DNA of 32,151 nt from Verrucomicrobiota bacterium. Its GTDB lineage: Bacteria > Verrucomicrobiota > Verrucomicrobiia > Verrucomicrobiales > DEV007. The stretch's first letter is position 1; each line of letters begins with the position of its first letter. A program made the position numbers and the translations under genes. The stretch spans positions 1-32,151 of the forward strand of contig PKCI01000194.1 in NCBI GenBank assembly GCA_002862135.1, written 5' to 3'. Below, piece by piece: positions 2,070 through 12,181 of this stretch. The notes below the pieces were generated by a model that was not told the DNA's origin, did no database searches, and saw only the letters and a program-made list of their open reading frames with translations.

Positions 2070-4349
2070 TTATTTCAGCCCCCCAAGAGACTCAATCCAT
2101 CGGCTTATCAAAGCGGCACCTTTTTCATCCACCACATAATGATTTCCTAATAACGGCATTTTTCCTGCCTCAGCCGTAGCAATGCGACGATAAATCTCAG
2201 AGCGATCCGGGTCACCCGGCGCCACCAGCTTCGCCTCTTCGAGAGGAACCCCGGGCAGCCCTACCAGGGGGCGCCCATTGATGAGTTCAGTTCGGTCATT
2301 AGGCAACCAGCTAATCAATTGAAAGGAGGCACGCCCCCCTAATCCGGTTTCGCGATGGCAGTGAGCACAGTTGACGTGCAGATAGGTTCGCGCCCGATCT
2401 TCCAGACTCGCCGTTTCATCATCGATCGCTGGGAATGATTGGTGTTTAGAGATATCCCTCACCACGTTTGCGTTCTGAAACCAACCTAGTTCACGCATCA
2501 CTTCGATTTGGTTTCGCTTAGCACCACCGAGGGATCGGTAATCAAACTCACGATTGAGTTGCCCCAGTGTCAGGCTTAGCCCAAACATACTGCGTTGTGT
2601 GTGACAGGCTGTGCACTCAGCTCGGCCGGGGAATCGCCACTTCTGCTTTAACTCGTATTCCCCACCTTCTTTACCACTAAATAATAGCTCCACTTCGGCC
2701 CCCTCTTCAGGAACTAATTCAGCCTCAGTCTGGTCCAAATTCCATCGGTAGGATAGATAACGCCACTCCCCTCCATCCTTCAGTGAAATCTGGGTTTCAA
2801 TGCGGCGTCCGTGCAACGACAGGGTTTGCATGAGCAATGAACTGGATGGCAACTTCCAGCGATCGACTCCCGCCAGGGTGCGCGCATTCTCCAGTTCGTT
2901 TTTTCCCTTCACCGCCGGTGGAATCATCTGAATTTGAACTTTCTCCTCGTCAGTTCGGACGGCAATAAAACGCTCCGCCTCTGCTCCATCCCAAAAGACC
3001 GGATGATTAATCTCGTAGGGAAGCAATCCGGGGTCTACCTCGTGCTTTTCGGTAGAAGTGAATAAACCCGTTTCACTCAGCTTGGTCGGAATCGGCTTCA
3101 ATTCCCGCTCAGGAGCTCGGCGCAGTTTGAAAAGCCCGCGATCGAGGGCCAACACAATGACCTCTTTGTCAGGCGTTTCACAAAACGACACTACCTGCCC
3201 TTTCAGGTCCGCGATGCGACGCAAACCAATAACCTCATCCCCTTTCATCGAGAACGCCCAGATTTTCTTCGTGAGGTGACAACCGTAAAGGTAGTGATTC
3301 CTCAACTCCGGAAACTGGTCACCGCGATACCAAAGGCCACCGATGACTGAGCGCAGTTCCTGGTGGGATTGCTCCACAATCGGAAGGGTTTGCGTTGGAT
3401 TGGGACCAGCGAGGGGGTTGCTGGGTCGAAAGGGGTGACTGCCCTCAAAGGTGCTCCAGCCGAAATTTTCTCCTCCGCGCACCCGGTGCACCATTTCCCA
3501 GTCTTCATCCCCGTTGTCGCCCAACCAGACCTCGTTGGTGCCGGGGTGAAAGCACATCCGCCAGGGATTGCGCAAGCCGTAGGCCCACACCTCGGGACGA
3601 ATTCCCTCGACGCCCACCCAGGGATTGTCCTCCGGAATTTGATAGGCGAGATCACCACCCTTTCGACTGACATCGATTCGGAGGATAGACCCTAACAAGT
3701 TATCCGTTTTCTGGCCGACATTATCAGGATCTCCCGGGGTGGAGCCATCACCGCTCGTGATGTAAAGCATCCCGTCCGGTCCAAAATCAAGATCTCCACC
3801 TCGGTGCCCCGTAGCAGGCCATTCGAGAATCATTTCTTCTTTCTCCGGATCGAGGAAAAACGGATTCGCAGGATCCATCTCGAACCGGGTCAGCCAGTTG
3901 AAGCCGTCATCCGGAGTCAGCACGCCGGAACGCAGATAGAATTCCGGCGTGTTAGGAAAATCTGGATGGAATCTCGCGCCCAGGTTTTGACGATGCCCTT
4001 TGACCTCGTAAGCCAGGTCGTCAGGAACACCCAGTTTGATCAGAAAGTCGCGCTCTCCGGAATCTCCGTTTAGATGCCAGATACTGCCATTTCGCTCCAG
4101 CACCAAATAGTGCTCTCCTTTCACCCCGGGAACCGGAACCATGCAGAGCGCCTGTTCCCAGGCAATTTTCCCATGAAAAGACTCTGGTTCATAGGGGAGC
4201 GGATCCTGCCCGGTTCCTTCCAATAGAGATCCCGCCCACGGAGCCACCGCGGGGAGTGACTCCCCGGCCACCGTAACCAATCTCGAACCAGCAATCAGCG
4301 TAACGACTGCGGAGAGAAAAAGAAAACGACGAAAAAAAGGTGTCGGCAT
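2070..4349 (-). CDS. Exported PQQ-type glucose/sorbosone dehydrogenase fused to a diheme cytochrome c region
   Basis: About 759 residues from the chosen ATG at 4349, which starts a clean signal peptide (MPTPFFRRFLFLSAVV). Starts at 4385 (ATG) or 4391 (TTG) would add 12-14 residues ahead of it; none has a good ribosome binding site. Residues ~45-410 match the soluble PQQ glucose/sorbosone dehydrogenase propeller, with HRGGDLDFGPDGMLYITSGDG, a YGLRNPWR motif and GDNGDEDWE. Residues ~430-759 resemble the SO2930-type diheme cytochrome family: LLPYEINHPVFWDGAEAERF, then two CxxCH heme sites, CTACH (~579-583) and CAHCH (~661-665). Known members oxidise aldoses or related sugars using PQQ; here electrons could pass directly to the built-in hemes and then to a respiratory cytochrome. 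The substrate is unknown and no PQQ synthesis genes are nearby. It starts 50 bp after the transporter gene and may be co-transcribed with it. Confidence 0.8.
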   Translation of the reverse strand: MPTPFFRRFLFLSAVVTLIAGSRLVTVAGESLPAVAPWAGSLLEGTGQDPLPYEPESFHGKIAWEQALCMVPVPGVKGEHYLVLERNGSIWHLNGDSGERDFLIKLGVPDDLAYEVKGHRQNLGARFHPDFPNTPEFYLRSGVLTPDDGFNWLTRFEMDPANPFFLDPEKEEMILEWPATGHRGGDLDFGPDGMLYITSGDGSTPGDPDNVGQKTDNLLGSILRIDVSRKGGDLAYQIPEDNPWVGVEGIRPEVWAYGLRNPWRMCFHPGTNEVWLGDNGDEDWEMVHRVRGGENFGWSTFEGSHPFRPSNPLAGPNPTQTLPIVEQSHQELRSVIGGLWYRGDQFPELRNHYLYGCHLTKKIWAFSMKGDEVIGLRRIADLKGQVVSFCETPDKEVIVLALDRGLFKLRRAPERELKPIPTKLSETGLFTSTEKHEVDPGLLPYEINHPVFWDGAEAERFIAVRTDEEKVQIQMIPPAVKGKNELENARTLAGVDRWKLPSSSLLMQTLSLHGRRIETQISLKDGGEWRYLSYRWNLDQTEAELVPEEGAEVELLFSGKEGGEYELKQKWRFPGRAECTACHTQRSMFGLSLTLGQLNREFDYRSLGGAKRNQIEVMRELGWFQNANVVRDISKHQSFPAIDDETASLEDRARTYLHVNCAHCHRETGLGGRASFQLISWLPNDRTELINGRPLVGLPGVPLEEAKLVAPGDPDRSEIYRRIATAEAGKMPLLGNHYVVDEKGAALISRWIESLGGLK

Positions 4350-4399
4350 ATGGAATTCATACAATGCCGCCGCAGGTTTCGCCATACCCAAATGGCCAC

Positions 4400-5737
4400 T
4401 TACGGCAGTGAAACGCCAAAGAAACTGCCGAAAATGAACTCTGTTCCCAGCCCGGCAATCAAGGCAATCTCAGCCAGAAGCAGCAGGCGCTTTCTGTCCC
4501 AATCGCAGATCAACGCACCCATTAGGAAGATCAGAAAAACGGATAGAAGCGAGAAGGGCAAGGCGGTAAACTCGAGCAAGGCGACGTAGGCCAGCAGCAC
4601 GAGAAAGCAGAGCACCCCGCGCTTCAGATCAACCGATTCATCACCCAGCGACTCACCGCGATGCCTCCAAGTGGAGTTGCCCACCACGATCAGCAACCCG
4701 AGCGCGACGACGGCGATGTAGGCGGGAAAATTCGGAAGTTCGTTCTCCGCTTCCACGGCGAACGATTCCAGAAGCGTGACACGGTCGGCCACGCGCTGTC
4801 GAACCGCTTCTCCATCCGAGAAAGTGGGATCGATGGCCTGCTCGGCAAGACGCTCCTGAACCTCGGGATATTGCATCGCCTTCTCGAGCGTTCCCGCGAT
4901 CAGTTCCTGAACCTCGAGCGGAGTGCCTTTAGGTGCCCACCAGTAGTAGGCATTGCTAGAGGTGACGTCGACGCCCTGCTCCACGCAAGTCTCCACTCCA
5001 GGGAGTTCCGGGTGCGGTTTTTCAGATAGGCAGGCCAGCACGCGGATATTCCTGTCAGCCAGCGTGCCCTCCGGCGAACGGAACTTGAGATACTCCGCGA
5101 GGGAAAAGATGCCCGCATCAAGATGCTGTCCGATAATCTCGGTGTATCGAGTCTGCCCACCGCCTGAGGTGACCAGATTGAACTTCGCACCTGGATGCGC
5201 CGCTTCCAAATTCATCGCCGTGAAGTGGGCCGGCGAGCCGATGTTTGCCCCGAAGCGGATTGTTGCAGGTGACTGCTTGGCTGCTTCGAGCAGATCCACA
5301 ATCGTTTCGTAAGGCGCGTCCTCCCGCACAATGATGAGCAGCACAATTTCGCCGGTCTGAGCCACCACCTCGAAGTCCGCCGCCCCAAAGTTGGCCGCCC
5401 CTGAGAGCTCGGCGGTGATCATCGATTCGTGGTGGCAGAGAATGCGATAGCCGTCCGGCCGTGCTTCTTTGACCAGTCTGCTACCAATCGTTCCGCTGCC
5501 TCCCGGTTGGTTGAGCACCACGAAGGGCTCATCGATCCAGCCCTCATCAGCGATCACTTTGATGACGGGGCGAACAAAGCTGTCACTCCCGCCACCCGCA
5601 TCATAGGGAATTACAATCTCGATGGGCTTGGAAGGATAAGAATCATCCGCCTTCAGCAGCGCCATCGCCTGGGCCACCTTCCAAACAATCAGAACGAGAA
5701 TCACCAGGATCGCAATACCGTGAATAACGCGCCTCAT
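4400..5737 (-). CDS. Fused TctC-TctB protein of a tripartite tricarboxylate-type transporter
   Basis: A 445-residue single chain joining two normally separate subunits. Residues ~1-28 form a hydrophobic segment after MRR. Residues ~33-325 are a TctC/Bug-type binding protein: YPSKPIEIVIPYDAGGGSD, VLNQPGGSGTIGS and WWAPKGTP are family hallmarks. Residues ~335-445 hold four hydrophobic segments of the TctB small membrane subunit, ending GVSLP like typical TctB. Loops with RHR/KR and DRKR fit the positive-inside rule if the binding domain is periplasmic. The start at 5737 is set by a perfect AGGAGG at 5745-5750 and by an ATGA overlap with the tctA stop (5734-5737), implying translational coupling. 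A longer in-frame reading upstream lies inside tctA and is not credible. With TctA it should import a carboxylate or related anion using an ion gradient; the ligand cannot be read from the sequence. Confidence 0.85.
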   Translation of the reverse strand: MRRVIHGIAILVILVLIVWKVAQAMALLKADDSYPSKPIEIVIPYDAGGGSDSFVRPVIKVIADEGWIDEPFVVLNQPGGSGTIGSRLVKEARPDGYRILCHHESMITAELSGAANFGAADFEVVAQTGEIVLLIIVREDAPYETIVDLLEAAKQSPATIRFGANIGSPAHFTAMNLEAAHPGAKFNLVTSGGGQTRYTEIIGQHLDAGIFSLAEYLKFRSPEGTLADRNIRVLACLSEKPHPELPGVETCVEQGVDVTSSNAYYWWAPKGTPLEVQELIAGTLEKAMQYPEVQERLAEQAIDPTFSDGEAVRQRVADRVTLLESFAVEAENELPNFPAYIAVVALGLLIVVGNSTWRHRGESLGDESVDLKRGVLCFLVLLAYVALLEFTALPFSLLSVFLIFLMGALICDWDRKRLLLLAEIALIAGLGTEFIFGSFFGVSLP

Positions 5738-7218
5738 AATTCCGCCTCCTTTCGCTGAAAGCGGGAACGCAGCCTCGGTATCAGCAGCATGACCACCGCC
5801 ATGAAAATGAAGGTCGCCGAAATCGGACGCGTCAGGATGGGCAGCCAGTCGCCATTGGTCGACATGAGCCCGGCGCTCAGCTTCGTTTCCGCTATCGGCC
5901 AGAGAACAAACCCGATCACGAAAGGCGCCAAGGGAATCTTGACCCTCTCGAGCAGAAACCCAAGCACCCCAAAGCCTAACATCACCCAAACATCAAAGAG
6001 GCGATTAGAAAGAGCGAACGATCCAATCACACAGAACAGCACAATGACCGGCAGGAGGTAGGCTCTTGGAATCGATGCCATTCGCGCAAGAAAACGCATC
6101 GATCCAAACATCACGATGACCATGACGACGTTAGCCAAAAACATCGCACCCATGATGGTGTAGACCACGACTGGACTGTCCGTGAAGAGACGTGGCCCGG
6201 GTTGCAACCCGTGAAGCACCAAGGCGCCAAGCAACACCGCCTCCACCACACTACCGGGAATACCCATCGCAATCAGCGGAATGAGAGCGCCTCCGATCGT
6301 TGCGTTGTTGGAAGCCTCCGCCGCGACGATTCCAGGTTCGTGACCGGTGCCAAACTTTTCCGGTTCCTTGGAGGTGCTGCGAGCTACCGCGTAGGCCGTG
6401 ACTGATCCAATGTTGGCCCCAATGCCCGGCAGGATCCCAATCGATGTACCGATCACCGAAGAGCGGATCATGTTGATGAGATGAGACGAGAAATCCTTCC
6501 ACCGAGGCAGGATGCGTTTCTTACCCAGCCCAATCGCCCTCGGAATGGCACCACCCGACGTCGTTTCCTTGAGAATCTGGTTCATAGCAAACATGCCCAC
6601 CAACACCGGGACGAGCTCAAACCCGTCATTGAGAGCGGTTAAACCAAGGGTGAGCCGAGGCTGCCCTGTGGCTGGCGAAATCCCCGGCATGGAAAAGAGA
6701 ATTCCCAGCACCCCGGCCAGAAGCGAGCGTGAGAGCGACTTGCCTCCGATGCTCGCAATCAACACCAGCGCCATCATCACGAGCGAGAAATATTCGAAGG
6801 GGCCAAACTTGGTCGACAGCTGTGCGATCGGTTTTGAGAGCAATACGAGGAACCCCCAGGAGATCATGCCACCCATGAACGAAGCCATGACGCCGAGAGA
6901 AAGGGCGCGCTCCGGTTTACCGTTTTTTGCCAGGGGATAACCGTCCAGCGTGGTCACGATGGACGCCGGCGTTCCCGGCATGCGCAGAAGAGTGGAAGTG
7001 ATCATGCCACCACTAATCGCGCCCACGTAGATGCTGATCAGCAGGGTCATTGCGTAACCCGTGTCCTGCCCATAGGTCAGGGGCAGGGCCAACGCGATCA
7101 GCATGGTCCCAGTCAGGCCGGGAATGGCGCCAACAAATACCCCTAAAGTTGTGCCAAGCACGACGAGAAACAGCCCCATCGGACTGCAGAGTTGGGAGAT
7201 CGCTTCCTGGATGGGCAT
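5734..7218 (-). CDS. tctA: TctA family large membrane subunit of a tripartite tricarboxylate-type transporter
   Basis: A 494-residue polytopic inner-membrane protein, the normal TctA length (~500). Family signatures are clear: GVFVGAIPGLTGTMLIALAL near the N-terminus, TLLRMPGTPASIVTTLDGYP around residues 75-95, and the duplicated motif GILPGIGANIGS followed by EASNNATIGGALIPLIAMGI in the second half. About eleven hydrophobic helices alternate with short loops. TctA forms the ion-coupled translocation channel and works with a periplasmic binding protein (TctC) and a small membrane subunit (TctB), here encoded as one fused downstream gene with a 4-base ATGA overlap. The ATG at 7218 follows a short leader of heptad repeats and has no obvious Shine-Dalgarno. 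A sulfatase gene lies 73 bp upstream on the same strand, so read-through from it is possible. Confidence 0.93.
   Translation of the reverse strand: MPIQEAISQLCSPMGLFLVVLGTTLGVFVGAIPGLTGTMLIALALPLTYGQDTGYAMTLLISIYVGAISGGMITSTLLRMPGTPASIVTTLDGYPLAKNGKPERALSLGVMASFMGGMISWGFLVLLSKPIAQLSTKFGPFEYFSLVMMALVLIASIGGKSLSRSLLAGVLGILFSMPGISPATGQPRLTLGLTALNDGFELVPVLVGMFAMNQILKETTSGGAIPRAIGLGKKRILPRWKDFSSHLINMIRSSVIGTSIGILPGIGANIGSVTAYAVARSTSKEPEKFGTGHEPGIVAAEASNNATIGGALIPLIAMGIPGSVVEAVLLGALVLHGLQPGPRLFTDSPVVVYTIMGAMFLANVVMVIVMFGSMRFLARMASIPRAYLLPVIVLFCVIGSFALSNRLFDVWVMLGFGVLGFLLERVKIPLAPFVIGFVLWPIAETKLSAGLMSTNGDWLPILTRPISATFIFMAVVMLLIPRLRSRFQRKEAEL
5745..5750 (-). promoter_or_regulatory. Shine-Dalgarno AGGAGG that fixes the TctC-TctB start
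   Basis: On the minus strand AGGAGG lies seven bases before the ATG at 5737. It is inside the 3' end of tctA and decides between the coupled start at 5737 and an upstream in-frame extension. Confidence 0.8.
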
Positions 7219-7291: not shown

Positions 7292-8848
7292 TCATTTTAC
7301 GGGCGTTCCGACGGCTGGCAGATTATCCACCATGCCGGCCTTGGTGCGACGAAGTTCGTCGATCGCCTGACTACGAAACTTTTTCAGAGTCTCCTGGTGG
7401 ACAGCAAGTTGGGCGAGATTGACCACTTCCTCCGGATCGTCGTCCATATGATAGAGCTCCTCGGTCTCACCTTCGATCAGGTTGCGGATGTATTTGTATT
7501 CCCCCTCACACAACATGACATACCACGGAATGCCGGGACCATGAATCAACCTGGGATCACCGGCCGGAGGAACGTTATTCGTGTCGGAACCGAATTGTTT
7601 GGCAGTGTGAACCAGCAATGCTGGGTATTCCCAGGCCTTATCTTCAGCACCTAGCAAAGGGCTCAAATCATAGCCATGCATTTCCCAGGGCAACTCAATG
7701 CCGGCCTGGGCGAAAAAGGTTGGCACAATATCGACACCAGCGATGGGCTCTTCAATCACCCGTCCGGCACTTTGATCCGCGATCGCCCCCGGCATGCGAA
7801 TAATCATGGGTGCCTCCACATTGGCCCGATAGGGTGCTACCTTGGACTTGAAGCCCTTCTGCCCCCAGGCAAAGCCTTGATCTGACGTGAAAACGATCAA
7901 CGTGTTTTCGTCCTGCCCCGTTGCCTGCAGCGCTTCAAGCAATCGGCCAACACCTTCATCGATCGCAAGAACGCCCTGCTGATATTGCTGGACCCAGTCC
8001 CGCAGCGAACGACCCGGCATATCCTTCATCCCTACCGGGCTGTCATCTCGCACTTTCCTCTCCACAGGCTCACCGTTTTTACCCGGCTCCCAGAATTCCA
8101 TTTCCTGAATATATTTGGGCTTATCCGGGCGCGGTGGATAAATATCAGCCGGGACTTCAACCATAGCATCCTGATAGTCATCGAGGTGACGTTCCGCGGG
8201 GGTGAAGGGTCCGTGCACGGCTCCATAGCAAAGCCAGAGGTACCAGGGCTTACCCTCCTCCCTGCCTTCACCGCTGATGTAATCCACAGCCCAGTCAGTG
8301 TAATTATCAGTGGTGTAACCCTTGGTCATCTTCGGCTTGCCGCCGTTCTTCACGATGAGTTGGTTGTCGTAGTAGTAGGGGGAATTATCCACGTATTTGG
8401 GGCGGTTCCAGACGATCTGGTAATCCCAGTCCCGGCCGAACCCGTCATCAGCTCCTGTATGCCATTTCCCGATATGTGCAGTGGTGTAGCCGTTTTTACG
8501 AAAGACACTCGGCCAGAAACGACACTGCTCTGGGTCGTAAACGCTTCCGGGGTATTGCCCTTCCATCCGCATGGATTCGATTCCATGCTGCTGAAGCCCG
8601 GTCAGCAGCGAGGCTCTTGATGTCATGCACCAGGATCCGATATAGGCGTGCTCAAAGCGAACTCCCGCCGCCGCCAAGGCATCAATGTTAGGTGTATTAA
8701 CCCACGAATGAGCCTCTTCATAACAACTCACGGTTCGCGTCGACTGGTCGTCTGTGTAGATAAAGAGAATGTTAGGCCGATCAGCAGCCTCAACAGAGAC
8801 TGCGAGGCATCCAAGCAGTCCCACAAGCGAGTGAATCCAGAGTTTCAT
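7292..8848 (-). CDS. Exported formylglycine-type sulfatase with an unusual C-x-T-x-R motif
   Basis: A 518-residue S1-type sulfatase with a signal peptide (residues 1-21, ending VEA). Residues ~25-34 (NILFIYTDDQ) carry the first metal-binding aspartates, D33 and D34. The modified cysteine is C74 in WCMTSRASLLTG: the usual C-x-P/A-x-R motif has Thr where Pro or Ala is expected. The GKWH motif is at ~125-130, and the later metal site reads SDQG rather than the common DNG. The C-terminal region (LYHMDDDPEEVVNLA) is typical of alkaline-phosphatase-fold sulfatases. It should hydrolyse sulfate esters in the periplasm if the cysteine is converted to formylglycine by a maturase, not encoded here. It is divergent from the phosphotransferase gene (109-bp gap) and 73 bp upstream of tctA. 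The substrate subfamily cannot be assigned by eye. Confidence 0.9.
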   Translation of the reverse strand: MKLWIHSLVGLLGCLAVSVEAADRPNILFIYTDDQSTRTVSCYEEAHSWVNTPNIDALAAAGVRFEHAYIGSWCMTSRASLLTGLQQHGIESMRMEGQYPGSVYDPEQCRFWPSVFRKNGYTTAHIGKWHTGADDGFGRDWDYQIVWNRPKYVDNSPYYYDNQLIVKNGGKPKMTKGYTTDNYTDWAVDYISGEGREEGKPWYLWLCYGAVHGPFTPAERHLDDYQDAMVEVPADIYPPRPDKPKYIQEMEFWEPGKNGEPVERKVRDDSPVGMKDMPGRSLRDWVQQYQQGVLAIDEGVGRLLEALQATGQDENTLIVFTSDQGFAWGQKGFKSKVAPYRANVEAPMIIRMPGAIADQSAGRVIEEPIAGVDIVPTFFAQAGIELPWEMHGYDLSPLLGAEDKAWEYPALLVHTAKQFGSDTNNVPPAGDPRLIHGPGIPWYVMLCEGEYKYIRNLIEGETEELYHMDDDPEEVVNLAQLAVHQETLKKFRSQAIDELRRTKAGMVDNLPAVGTPVK

Positions 8849-10102: not shown

Positions 10103-12181
10103 ATGATCTCGCTAGTTTTAATGAATTTGATCAGTCTGATCATTCTTGGTCTCTCTGCATTCCCTATCGGATATCTGATCCTCAATCGGGCCCAACTGCG
10201 ATGGACCACCTTGGAATCAGTGGATCGAAGTAACCGGTTGTTTGCCATTCTATTTCTGGGCCTGAGCTGGTCCACTCTTTGGCTCTACTTGTTGATATTC
10301 ACCCCGTTGGACTATCACTCAGTCCACATCGTCGCCGCCATCAAGCTTGGCATCGAGATAGTTGCCGCAATTTTTGCGCTCTATATCTTTTGCAAACACC
10401 GGCCAAAAAAAACAACCAATCCTGTTAACGATAGCGGTTTGATCTGGAATATTCTAGGCTACTGCCTTGCCATCGCATTTGCATGCGGCAGCATCTATCT
10501 CCATCCCACTGCCATGGATAATGCAGCCCTGTACTGGCTTGCTTTCCAAATAGTGAGCAGCAACTTTGATCCATCAACAGCCCAAGGCTCTCCGTTCTAC
10601 ATCAGCTGGCTTATATCGCCCTCTGCCCTTCTCTCAAAGCACTTTATCATCGGCAATATTGCTGTGGTCATGAAGATGGCAGGAGCGCTCACCCTCTGGG
10701 TGACAGTTAAATATTTCTGCGGGCTTGTATTCACGCTTTCAAGAGGGCCAATCGCTATCCTCATTACCATCCTTATCCTCGACTCGTTCATCGGCGACTA
10801 CGGAATCTTTAAATCCGGTAAGGAGTCGCCAATTGGAATGCTCTTTCTGATCCCGATTTTGGGGCTGCTGATCAACAACGATCACGATAAGTCAACCACT
10901 TGGAAATTACCCGTTCTCCTGGGATTGTTTTCCAACCTCGCTATTGGTTTCGCTGCTGTCACCATACCCTATCTCGCCATTATCTATGTGCTGTTGCTCT
11001 TTACTGGCAAACTAGGTCTTCGTTGTCTGTTTAGCCTAGCCGTGACTGGCGCTCTGACCATCCCGTTTTCCTTCGCCACAATGCTCCATATCAACATGGC
11101 GCTTCTGGTAACCGTCTACTGGACTTGCTGTATCGTTGGTGTCTTCCTGCTGATACGGACAGGAGGATTCAAAAAGCTGCAAAGCAATACCTCTGATGCG
11201 CGCACAGACATGGCATTTTGGTTAACTACGAGTTCGAGTCTGGTGAGCCTCATCCTTCTGTTCATGCTTCTTCCGGTTGCCTACGAGCCGCGCCCGTTCT
11301 TTCCCCTAGACGGAGAGTCAGACATGAAAACTCTCCTCCTTAGTTTACCGCACTTCCCTCGATTCGCGAAGGTTTGCAACGTCATCGCATTTTTCCTGAT
11401 GTGGCTTATCGCGATTCGAGGCCGAAGACTTGGCCTTGCACTTTTTCTCAGCTTTCCCTGGATCGCACTGGCGACAGTGGTTGTTATAGCCAAGCTCCAA
11501 ATTACCAATCTCCCATTCTCCCCCCAACACCTTTGGGACTTGGCCAAGGATATTCCGAACTGGTGGCTACCTGTGTATTATGCAGTCAATACTGCCTGGC
11601 TGATCCACCTTGCGCAGCAAATGATTTCTTCATGGATTCTGAAGAAGCGCTTCCTAAACGATTCTGCCTCCGGTATTGCAGTCGCTATGCTCGCGATGTT
11701 CCTGAGTTATTATTCGTTATCTTCGATGTTCAAAGACTTCTATCACTTTAATCGCAAACCTCTACATCTCGGTGCAGTCTTTCACCCGCACAAAGAGTTT
11801 TGTGCTGCCGCTGACTGCTTTCACCAAGTCCTGAATCTTCCTCAGGAGAAGCTGATTGATTGGTCAGAGCGCGGGCTCTGGGCAAGCACAGAGGACGGGG
11901 CAAAGATGTTTACCGAGAACTACTACGCATACACATGGTCGTTCCATTCTGTCGGTGGACGGGTCTACCAATTTGCACCTGAGTCCGTTGGCATTCCTTT
12001 CTCAAATCTCGACGGACAATGGCAACTGGCGATGCTCGATCAAAAGACTGCTGAATCAATTGCACCCGATATCGATAAACGACTGATCTGTCAGATCACG
12101 GAAACCTCAGCAATCTATATGGTTGGCGACGCCAAAGCCTTCAATGTAGCAGCTGAGGCAATCCTTCCACTGGTGAGGTAG
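10103..12181 (+). CDS. Large polytopic membrane protein of unknown function (~14 helices plus a C-terminal soluble domain)
   Basis: A 692-residue protein I do not recognise. Hydrophobic segments occur throughout residues 1 to ~555, about 14 in all, for example SLIILGLSAFPIGYLIL, LFAILFLGLSWSTLWLYLL and IVAAIKLGIEIVAAIFALY. The final ~130 residues (from KDFYHFNRKP) are soluble and contain HPHKEFCAAADCF and WSERGLWASTEDG. The layout (long multi-helix N-terminal part with a soluble C-terminal domain) resembles GT-C glycosyltransferases or polymer-export proteins, but I see no diagnostic motif, so this is only a structural analogy. The first methionine is at 10103 with no Shine-Dalgarno; M7 is an alternative, and the frame is open further upstream through the 12-bp repeats. 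The gene ends 11 bp before the IMPase-like gene, so the two are probably co-transcribed. It looks somewhat more AT-rich than its neighbours. Confidence 0.65.
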   Translation: MISLVLMNLISLIILGLSAFPIGYLILNRAQLRWTTLESVDRSNRLFAILFLGLSWSTLWLYLLIFTPLDYHSVHIVAAIKLGIEIVAAIFALYIFCKHRPKKTTNPVNDSGLIWNILGYCLAIAFACGSIYLHPTAMDNAALYWLAFQIVSSNFDPSTAQGSPFYISWLISPSALLSKHFIIGNIAVVMKMAGALTLWVTVKYFCGLVFTLSRGPIAILITILILDSFIGDYGIFKSGKESPIGMLFLIPILGLLINNDHDKSTTWKLPVLLGLFSNLAIGFAAVTIPYLAIIYVLLLFTGKLGLRCLFSLAVTGALTIPFSFATMLHINMALLVTVYWTCCIVGVFLLIRTGGFKKLQSNTSDARTDMAFWLTTSSSLVSLILLFMLLPVAYEPRPFFPLDGESDMKTLLLSLPHFPRFAKVCNVIAFFLMWLIAIRGRRLGLALFLSFPWIALATVVVIAKLQITNLPFSPQHLWDLAKDIPNWWLPVYYAVNTAWLIHLAQQMISSWILKKRFLNDSASGIAVAMLAMFLSYYSLSSMFKDFYHFNRKPLHLGAVFHPHKEFCAAADCFHQVLNLPQEKLIDWSERGLWASTEDGAKMFTENYYAYTWSFHSVGGRVYQFAPESVGIPFSNLDGQWQLAMLDQKTAESIAPDIDKRLICQITETSAIYMVGDAKAFNVAAEAILPLVR

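Follow-up and report, generated by a model that had tools for sequence, protein, structure and literature searches.

The window analysed here, 32,151 nucleotides of a Verrucomicrobiota contig (PKCI01000194.1), encodes a single chain of 445 residues in which a solute receptor of the TctC/Bug family runs directly into a TctB membrane subunit that lacks its first helix. The fused gene, referred to as tctCB, adjoins tctA, and chains built alike are widespread among related genomes of the phylum. We regard it as a variant of the tripartite tricarboxylate transporter (TTT) that is new: among the matches listed, titles and abstract openings of the open-access literature contained no TctC-TctB fusion. 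We regard it as probable that tctCB and tctA specify a bipartite TTT without TctB helix 1, born by a deletion at the tctC-tctB junction, with the signal helix of the receptor retained and the fused protein working one-to-one with TctA.

The tctCB gene and its product

The tctCB gene (4400..5737, minus strand; defined by ORF call, Pfam and relatives) starts with ATG and is uninterrupted over its full length. Its start codon and the stop codon of tctA (5734..7218, minus strand) share four bases (ATGA, 5734..5737, minus strand), an overlap that may couple translation of the two genes, and AAAGGAGG among the upstream bases (5745..5752, minus strand) is a likely ribosome-binding sequence of tctCB. 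The tctA product, a channel subunit of 494 residues, matches PF01970 with 474 bits against a cut-off of 28.9, and a sequence search of the PDB with it, taken as far as E 1, turned up no relative. A sulfatase gene (7292..8848, minus strand) lies upstream of tctA with 73 bases between, possibly in the same operon. The genome, 92% complete, has two matches each to TctC and TctA, and tctCB is its sole TctB match. Just downstream of tctCB, the window (2070-4391, minus strand) encodes a sorbosone/glucose dehydrogenase-like (GSDH) protein with weak cytochrome c matches, and locus L004 has a GSDH gene at the equivalent position. Further off, an ORF of 692 residues (10103-12181, plus strand) belongs to no Pfam family, its best match being DUF5056 at E 0.1.

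Both halves of the chain are recognised by Pfam: TctC (PF03401) at residues 70-320 (E 4.4e-24, 85.9 bits against a cut-off of 27) and TctB (PF07331) at residues 337-445 (E 1e-7; 32.7 bits, cut-off 29.1). The TctB match spans profile positions 32-137 of 137, with positions 1-31 absent. AlphaFold2 (seven sequences, mean pLDDT 73.3) predicts an N-terminal helix at residues 2-29 (5651..5734, minus strand), interpreted from N-terminus comparison as a signal sequence that probably stays on as a membrane anchor, and the receptor domain, placed by Pfam and structure comparison at residues 33-325 (4763..5641, minus strand). The last receptor helix (residues 309-333; 4739..4813, minus strand) is followed, in model and alignment, by a short break and then by TctB helix 2. 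Predicted membrane helices at 337-358, 367-390, 395-410 and 415-439 correspond to TctB helices 2-5 (residues 337-445; 4403..4729, minus strand), helix 1 being absent; confidence in this membrane part is modest, with pLDDT of 35-78 in ten-residue blocks from residue 331 on, and the model of the relative L009 (mean pLDDT 44.6) was too poor for use. With the receptor part as query, Foldseek placed TctC 4x9t first (E 3e-21), along with Bug27, a terephthalate receptor, BugD, MatC and TphC. Domain and fold of the TctC/Bug family are present and TctA is encoded alongside, while the receptor is part of a single ORF, conserved in relatives, and not a periplasmic protein of its own. The distribution of positive charges is consistent with this arrangement: over 48 fused rows, Lys and Arg average 3.1 in the loop between helices 2 and 3 and 2.4 between helices 4 and 5, both predicted to lie inside, against 0.2 between helices 3 and 4 and 0.5 in the tail, both predicted to lie outside (2, 3, 0 and 0, respectively, in the window's protein). 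A topology with the N-terminus inside, the receptor outside and four helices behind it fits the positive-inside rule.

The sequence-only reading had recognised one 445-residue chain made of TctC plus TctB, and this stands on the intact frame, on the Pfam matches to both domains and on relatives with the same ORF. It had also drawn attention to a possible frameshift or assembly error around 4750-4850. That a sequencing or assembly artefact merged two genes is, in our judgement, practically inconceivable and is ruled out by the homologues: although the genome is a draft in 239 contigs, a continuous tctCB frame occurs in six further assemblies (L004-L009, 44-88% identity; the contig of L010 ends within the gene, and L011 is an unfused receptor of greater distance), the fusion is found in many other genomes of the phylum, and in all four pairs compared synonymous exceed non-synonymous changes per site in each of three parts, N-terminus, TctC and TctB. 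For the window against L004 or L005, dN/dS was 0.24-0.25 over residues 2-33, where sites are few, 0.06-0.09 over the TctC part and 0.06-0.16 over the TctB part, in which synonymous sites of the window pairs are near saturation; it did not exceed 0.31 in any part of L004/L005 and L006/L008.

Entry into TctB and recurrence of the fusion

Fused chains enter TctB at its second helix. Searching 387 genomes of the phylum with the PF07331 profile gave 35 with a match, 11 of them above cut-off. Of the matches classified by frame and sequence, 13 lie in TctC-TctB fusions (two below the Pfam cut-off), of which 12 begin at profile positions 31-38 and one at 20; in seven unfused tctB genes adjoining tctC in the same search, the match begins at 2-15. 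A TctA-TctB fusion, L058 (a 670-residue frame near 59737-60141 of contig C72, genome G339), retains helix 1 (profile positions 2-135). Genome G214, with a separate TctC and its TctB inside a long frame, was set aside from this search. A Pfam scan of eight fused proteins, two of which (L045, L046) had already appeared in the phylum search and four of which (L096, L097, L100, L103) lie under the TctB cut-off, found seven beginning at positions 29-39 and L045 at 21. When fused chains are aligned with eleven unfused TctBs (including one from Natrinema that is annotated from inside helix 2 and shows no helix 1), the soluble end helix of TctC occupies the position of helix 1. The proposal that the segment behind the receptor is TctB helix 2 is thus borne out by profile match, phylum search and alignment alike, and residues 335-445 do not align to TctB from its first helix, their match beginning at 32.

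A search with the fused alignment matched 40 of 288 genomes of the order, some through receptors only, and 48 fused proteins, including the window's and L107, went into a receptor-domain tree of 68 rows; a second tree of 67 rows omits L057 and its very long branch. Left out of the tree were L006, which is near-identical to L008, the truncated or duplicate rows L010, L042 and L101, and further copies of loci already included; start codons of relatives were set by a simple rule, so some N-termini may be wrong and those of L051 and L053 are unclear. The main fused group is a branch of 52 rows (support 93, not starred, in the 67-row tree), 47 with a TctB part and five with one helix. In the 68-row tree the fused groups and the unfused receptors L054, L055, L056 and L059 branch from one fork that the data do not resolve, so the fusion may have been lost, or have arisen several times, within the main group.

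L107 (5362-6684, plus strand of its locus) is a lipobox-bearing TctC-TctB fusion of another TctC lineage, and it enters TctB at PF07331 position 29. It lies among other receptors, and its joining the main fused group is rejected in the 67-row tree (p-AU 4e-5). On this tree there were two or more fusion events, and both known products lack TctB helix 1. An NCBIfam scan of the window's fusion, its TctA and L107 assigned no family.

In L091-L095, TctC ends in a single segment resembling TctB helix 2, followed by a stop. As they fall inside the fused group (some forks being unresolved), they are probably a reduced form of the fusion. One of them, L091 (3899-4942, minus strand of contig C6), is part of a second TTT of the window's genome, with tctA directly downstream, and yields no TctB match in Pfam. 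In genome G421 (93% complete) the sole TctA adjoins a one-helix receptor, and no TctB match lies above the cut-off, with one weak match below it.

Adjacency to tctA is the rule. Of the 47 main fused loci, 46 have tctA next to the fusion and in the same orientation, the exception (L119) stopping at a contig edge; it is upstream in exactly 14, which make up the window's subclade, and downstream in 32. The one-helix group has an adjoining tctA in all five loci.

Beyond the phylum, seven conventional operons have tctC and tctB as separate neighbours, and fusions were sought in a plasmid collection. With the window's protein as query, one of 833 matching records reached a coverage of at least 80% at a single site; with L107, 24 of 797 did. 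Twelve of the L107 matches at this coverage were among the 40 listed, and ten of these are two separate annotated genes; the other two are unannotated Proteus records, with two ORFs in the one inspected.

The N-terminal helix

Comparison with relatives favours an interpretation of the N-terminal helix as the signal sequence that TctC itself brought along. The window's protein belongs to an anchored clade of 18 rows without lipobox (support 96 in the 67-row and 90 in the 68-row tree). Outside it, 15 of 29 main-family fused relatives carry a lipobox (a false match in L052 being left out) and the remaining 14 have mostly secretion-type signals as judged by eye, and it is on these that our reading rests. 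The N-termini of the unfused sister TctCs L054-L056 and L059 look like signal peptides as well. In the window's own subclade of 14 rows (support 99 in the 68-row tree) the signal helix is probably kept as an anchor. The subclade has no lipobox; 13 of its 14 rows have Trp as the final residue of the helix, and in 12 the next residue is Lys, Arg or His. Here, then, the helix could possibly serve as a functional stand-in for TctB helix 1. Anchoring is not tied to fusion, however, since L013 and L060 are unfused TctCs and yet have anchor-like N-termini. On a hydrophobicity scale in which lower means more membrane-like, the best 19-residue sum averages 0.7 in the subclade, against 2.4 for nine unfused TctCs and 2.9 for the four anchored rows outside the subclade; rows with a lipobox average 3.4 and other fused rows 4.3, with overlapping ranges between the classes of N-terminus. 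The helix core measures 13 residues in the window's protein and 14 on average in the subclade; cores of 15-24 residues are seen in seven unfused TctBs.

A different history had been proposed on first inspection, namely that TctC was inserted between TctB helices 1 and 2, so that the N-terminal helix would be helix 1 by descent. The arrangement it describes, a receptor enclosed by membrane helices as in a TctB loop, survives as topology, and both the start of the C-terminal part at helix 2 and the uncleaved look of the subclade's N-terminal helix agree with it. As history we consider it improbable, given the lipoboxes and secretion-type signals of the fused relatives outside the anchored clade, the signal-like starts of unfused sister TctCs and the anchor-like N-termini of L013 and L060, neither of which is fused. 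Grafting the N-terminal helix onto the TctB part raised the PF07331 score of L009 by 1.3 bits (34.5 against 33.2 for the C-terminal part alone) but brought the window's protein no gain (35.6 against 37.1). Other helices in the graft position scored 37.5 bits (lipobox signal), 36.7 (real TctB helix 1), 33.9 (SPase I-type signal) and 32.9 (shuffled helix); for L046 (44.5) and L006 (26.1) the score is that of the grafted form only. The graft has no power to discriminate here, since the real helix 1, the positive control, adds no score either.

Should the helix instead be an ordinary signal peptide, cleaved at VAQA|M, the mature N-terminus would be free and the protein held by four membrane helices only. 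This has more to recommend it than the insertion history, and we rate it as unlikely rather than far-fetched. VAQA or AAQA occupies residues 21-24 in the window's protein, L004 and L005, which puts A-Q-A right before residue 25; L008 and L068 fit a simple -3/-1 rule four to five residues past the helix core, and many fused relatives have signals of SPase I or SPase II type. The rule itself decides nothing because it finds a match somewhere in most rows. Against cleavage speak Lys20 within the would-be cleavage region, a helix that closes with Trp in all but one of the 14 rows, and L007 and L009, which have no rule match in the ten residues past the core (matches in L069-L071 are weaker and six to eight residues on). 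N-terminal sequences are also somewhat more alike here than in other fused proteins at comparable TctC identity (0.253 against 0.172 at 45-55%, 0.289 against 0.198 at 55-70%), though hardly so at 35-45% (0.186 against 0.175), and the pairs are not independent. We therefore keep to a TctC signal sequence that would remain uncleaved in the window's subclade.

Origin, working and known counterparts

How could such a chain arise? Most probably, a neighbouring tctC-tctB pair lost a segment that contained TctB helix 1 together with the tctC stop and the start of tctB. Because the end of TctC is periplasmic and the beginning of TctB cytoplasmic, a fusion becomes topologically possible once helix 1 is gone: a join retaining it would leave TctB upside down, whereas in its absence the last TctC helix would run into helix 2, from outside to inside. 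The periplasmic receptor would then bind an anionic solute and hand it over to TctA, with the TctB helices fixing one receptor per TctB beside the channel. Since helix 2 in the model follows within a few residues of the last receptor helix, the receptor could not diffuse away; we would expect a fixed one-to-one pairing, a high local receptor concentration and receptors that are not shared among transporters, although TctB in fusions may be supplemented by further proteins. In the window's subclade, the receptor would be held at both ends, by the uncleaved signal helix and by the TctB helices. A bolder version for this subclade, plausible in our eyes without being probable, has the uncleaved helix replace helix 1 in an obligate two-protein machine of 1:1 composition, with TctB serving mainly as a receptor dock. 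Were TctB mainly a docking anchor, the side branch L091-L095 could have shrunk to one helix while keeping tctA.

As to substrates, an adjacent sulfatase gene on the same strand accompanies 25 of 47 main fused, one of five one-helix and none of nine unfused loci, some loci being short, related to each other or drawn several from one genome. Since rows are related in this way and the genomes are rich in sulfatases (at least 98 matches in each of ten genomes checked), the adjacency is a lead and nothing firmer. In L007, a tagaturonate epimerase-like gene (UxaE; 2119-3399, plus strand) lies directly upstream of tctA and hints, weakly, at uronates. A TTT taking up alginate oligosaccharides is known (PMC13390454), and from these two indications we would guess at anionic sugars such as uronates.

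What TctB does was called unknown in a 2018 review (PMC5812351), and by the account of a 2026 paper there is no characterised TctB (PMC13390454). Natural fusions suggest which of its parts are dispensable, namely helix 1, which both separate fusions lack, and perhaps helices 3-5, missing from L091-L095. They further suggest which end of it faces the receptor, and that it acts as a receptor dock. They also suggest a topology rule by which a receptor partner entails loss of helix 1 and a channel partner its retention, the latter on one case (L058). Recurrence of the tctCB design in many related genomes opens a way to study TctB, and a single-chain receptor-TctB could ease structural work and transport assays on the complex.

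With classical TctABC (TCDB 2.A.80) the window's system shares TctA, TctB and TctC families above their Pfam cut-offs, adjacent genes and the receptor fold. It differs in that its receptor is not a separate protein, its TctB has no helix 1 and, in the window's subclade (14 of 46 loci), tctA comes first. TctA-TctB fusions, described as rare in the 2018 review (PMC5812351), likewise combine two subunits of the transporter in a single protein. In these, TctB is attached to the channel and, in L058, keeps helix 1, whereas the window's TctB is joined to the receptor and does without it. For TRAP transporters, rare fusions of the receptor with the small subunit are mentioned in one report (PMC8276074). 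The logic of these TRAP fusions is the same, a receptor joined to a small membrane subunit, but TRAP and TTT are stated in the review to have no sequence similarity to each other (PMC5812351). Membrane-anchored TAXI receptors have reportedly been described by Roden in 2023. TAXI receptors can also be fused to GltS (PMC12344293). The likeness to tctCB lies in the tethering of a receptor to a secondary transporter, and the difference in that the receptor is joined there to the channel itself, and in proteins of other families.
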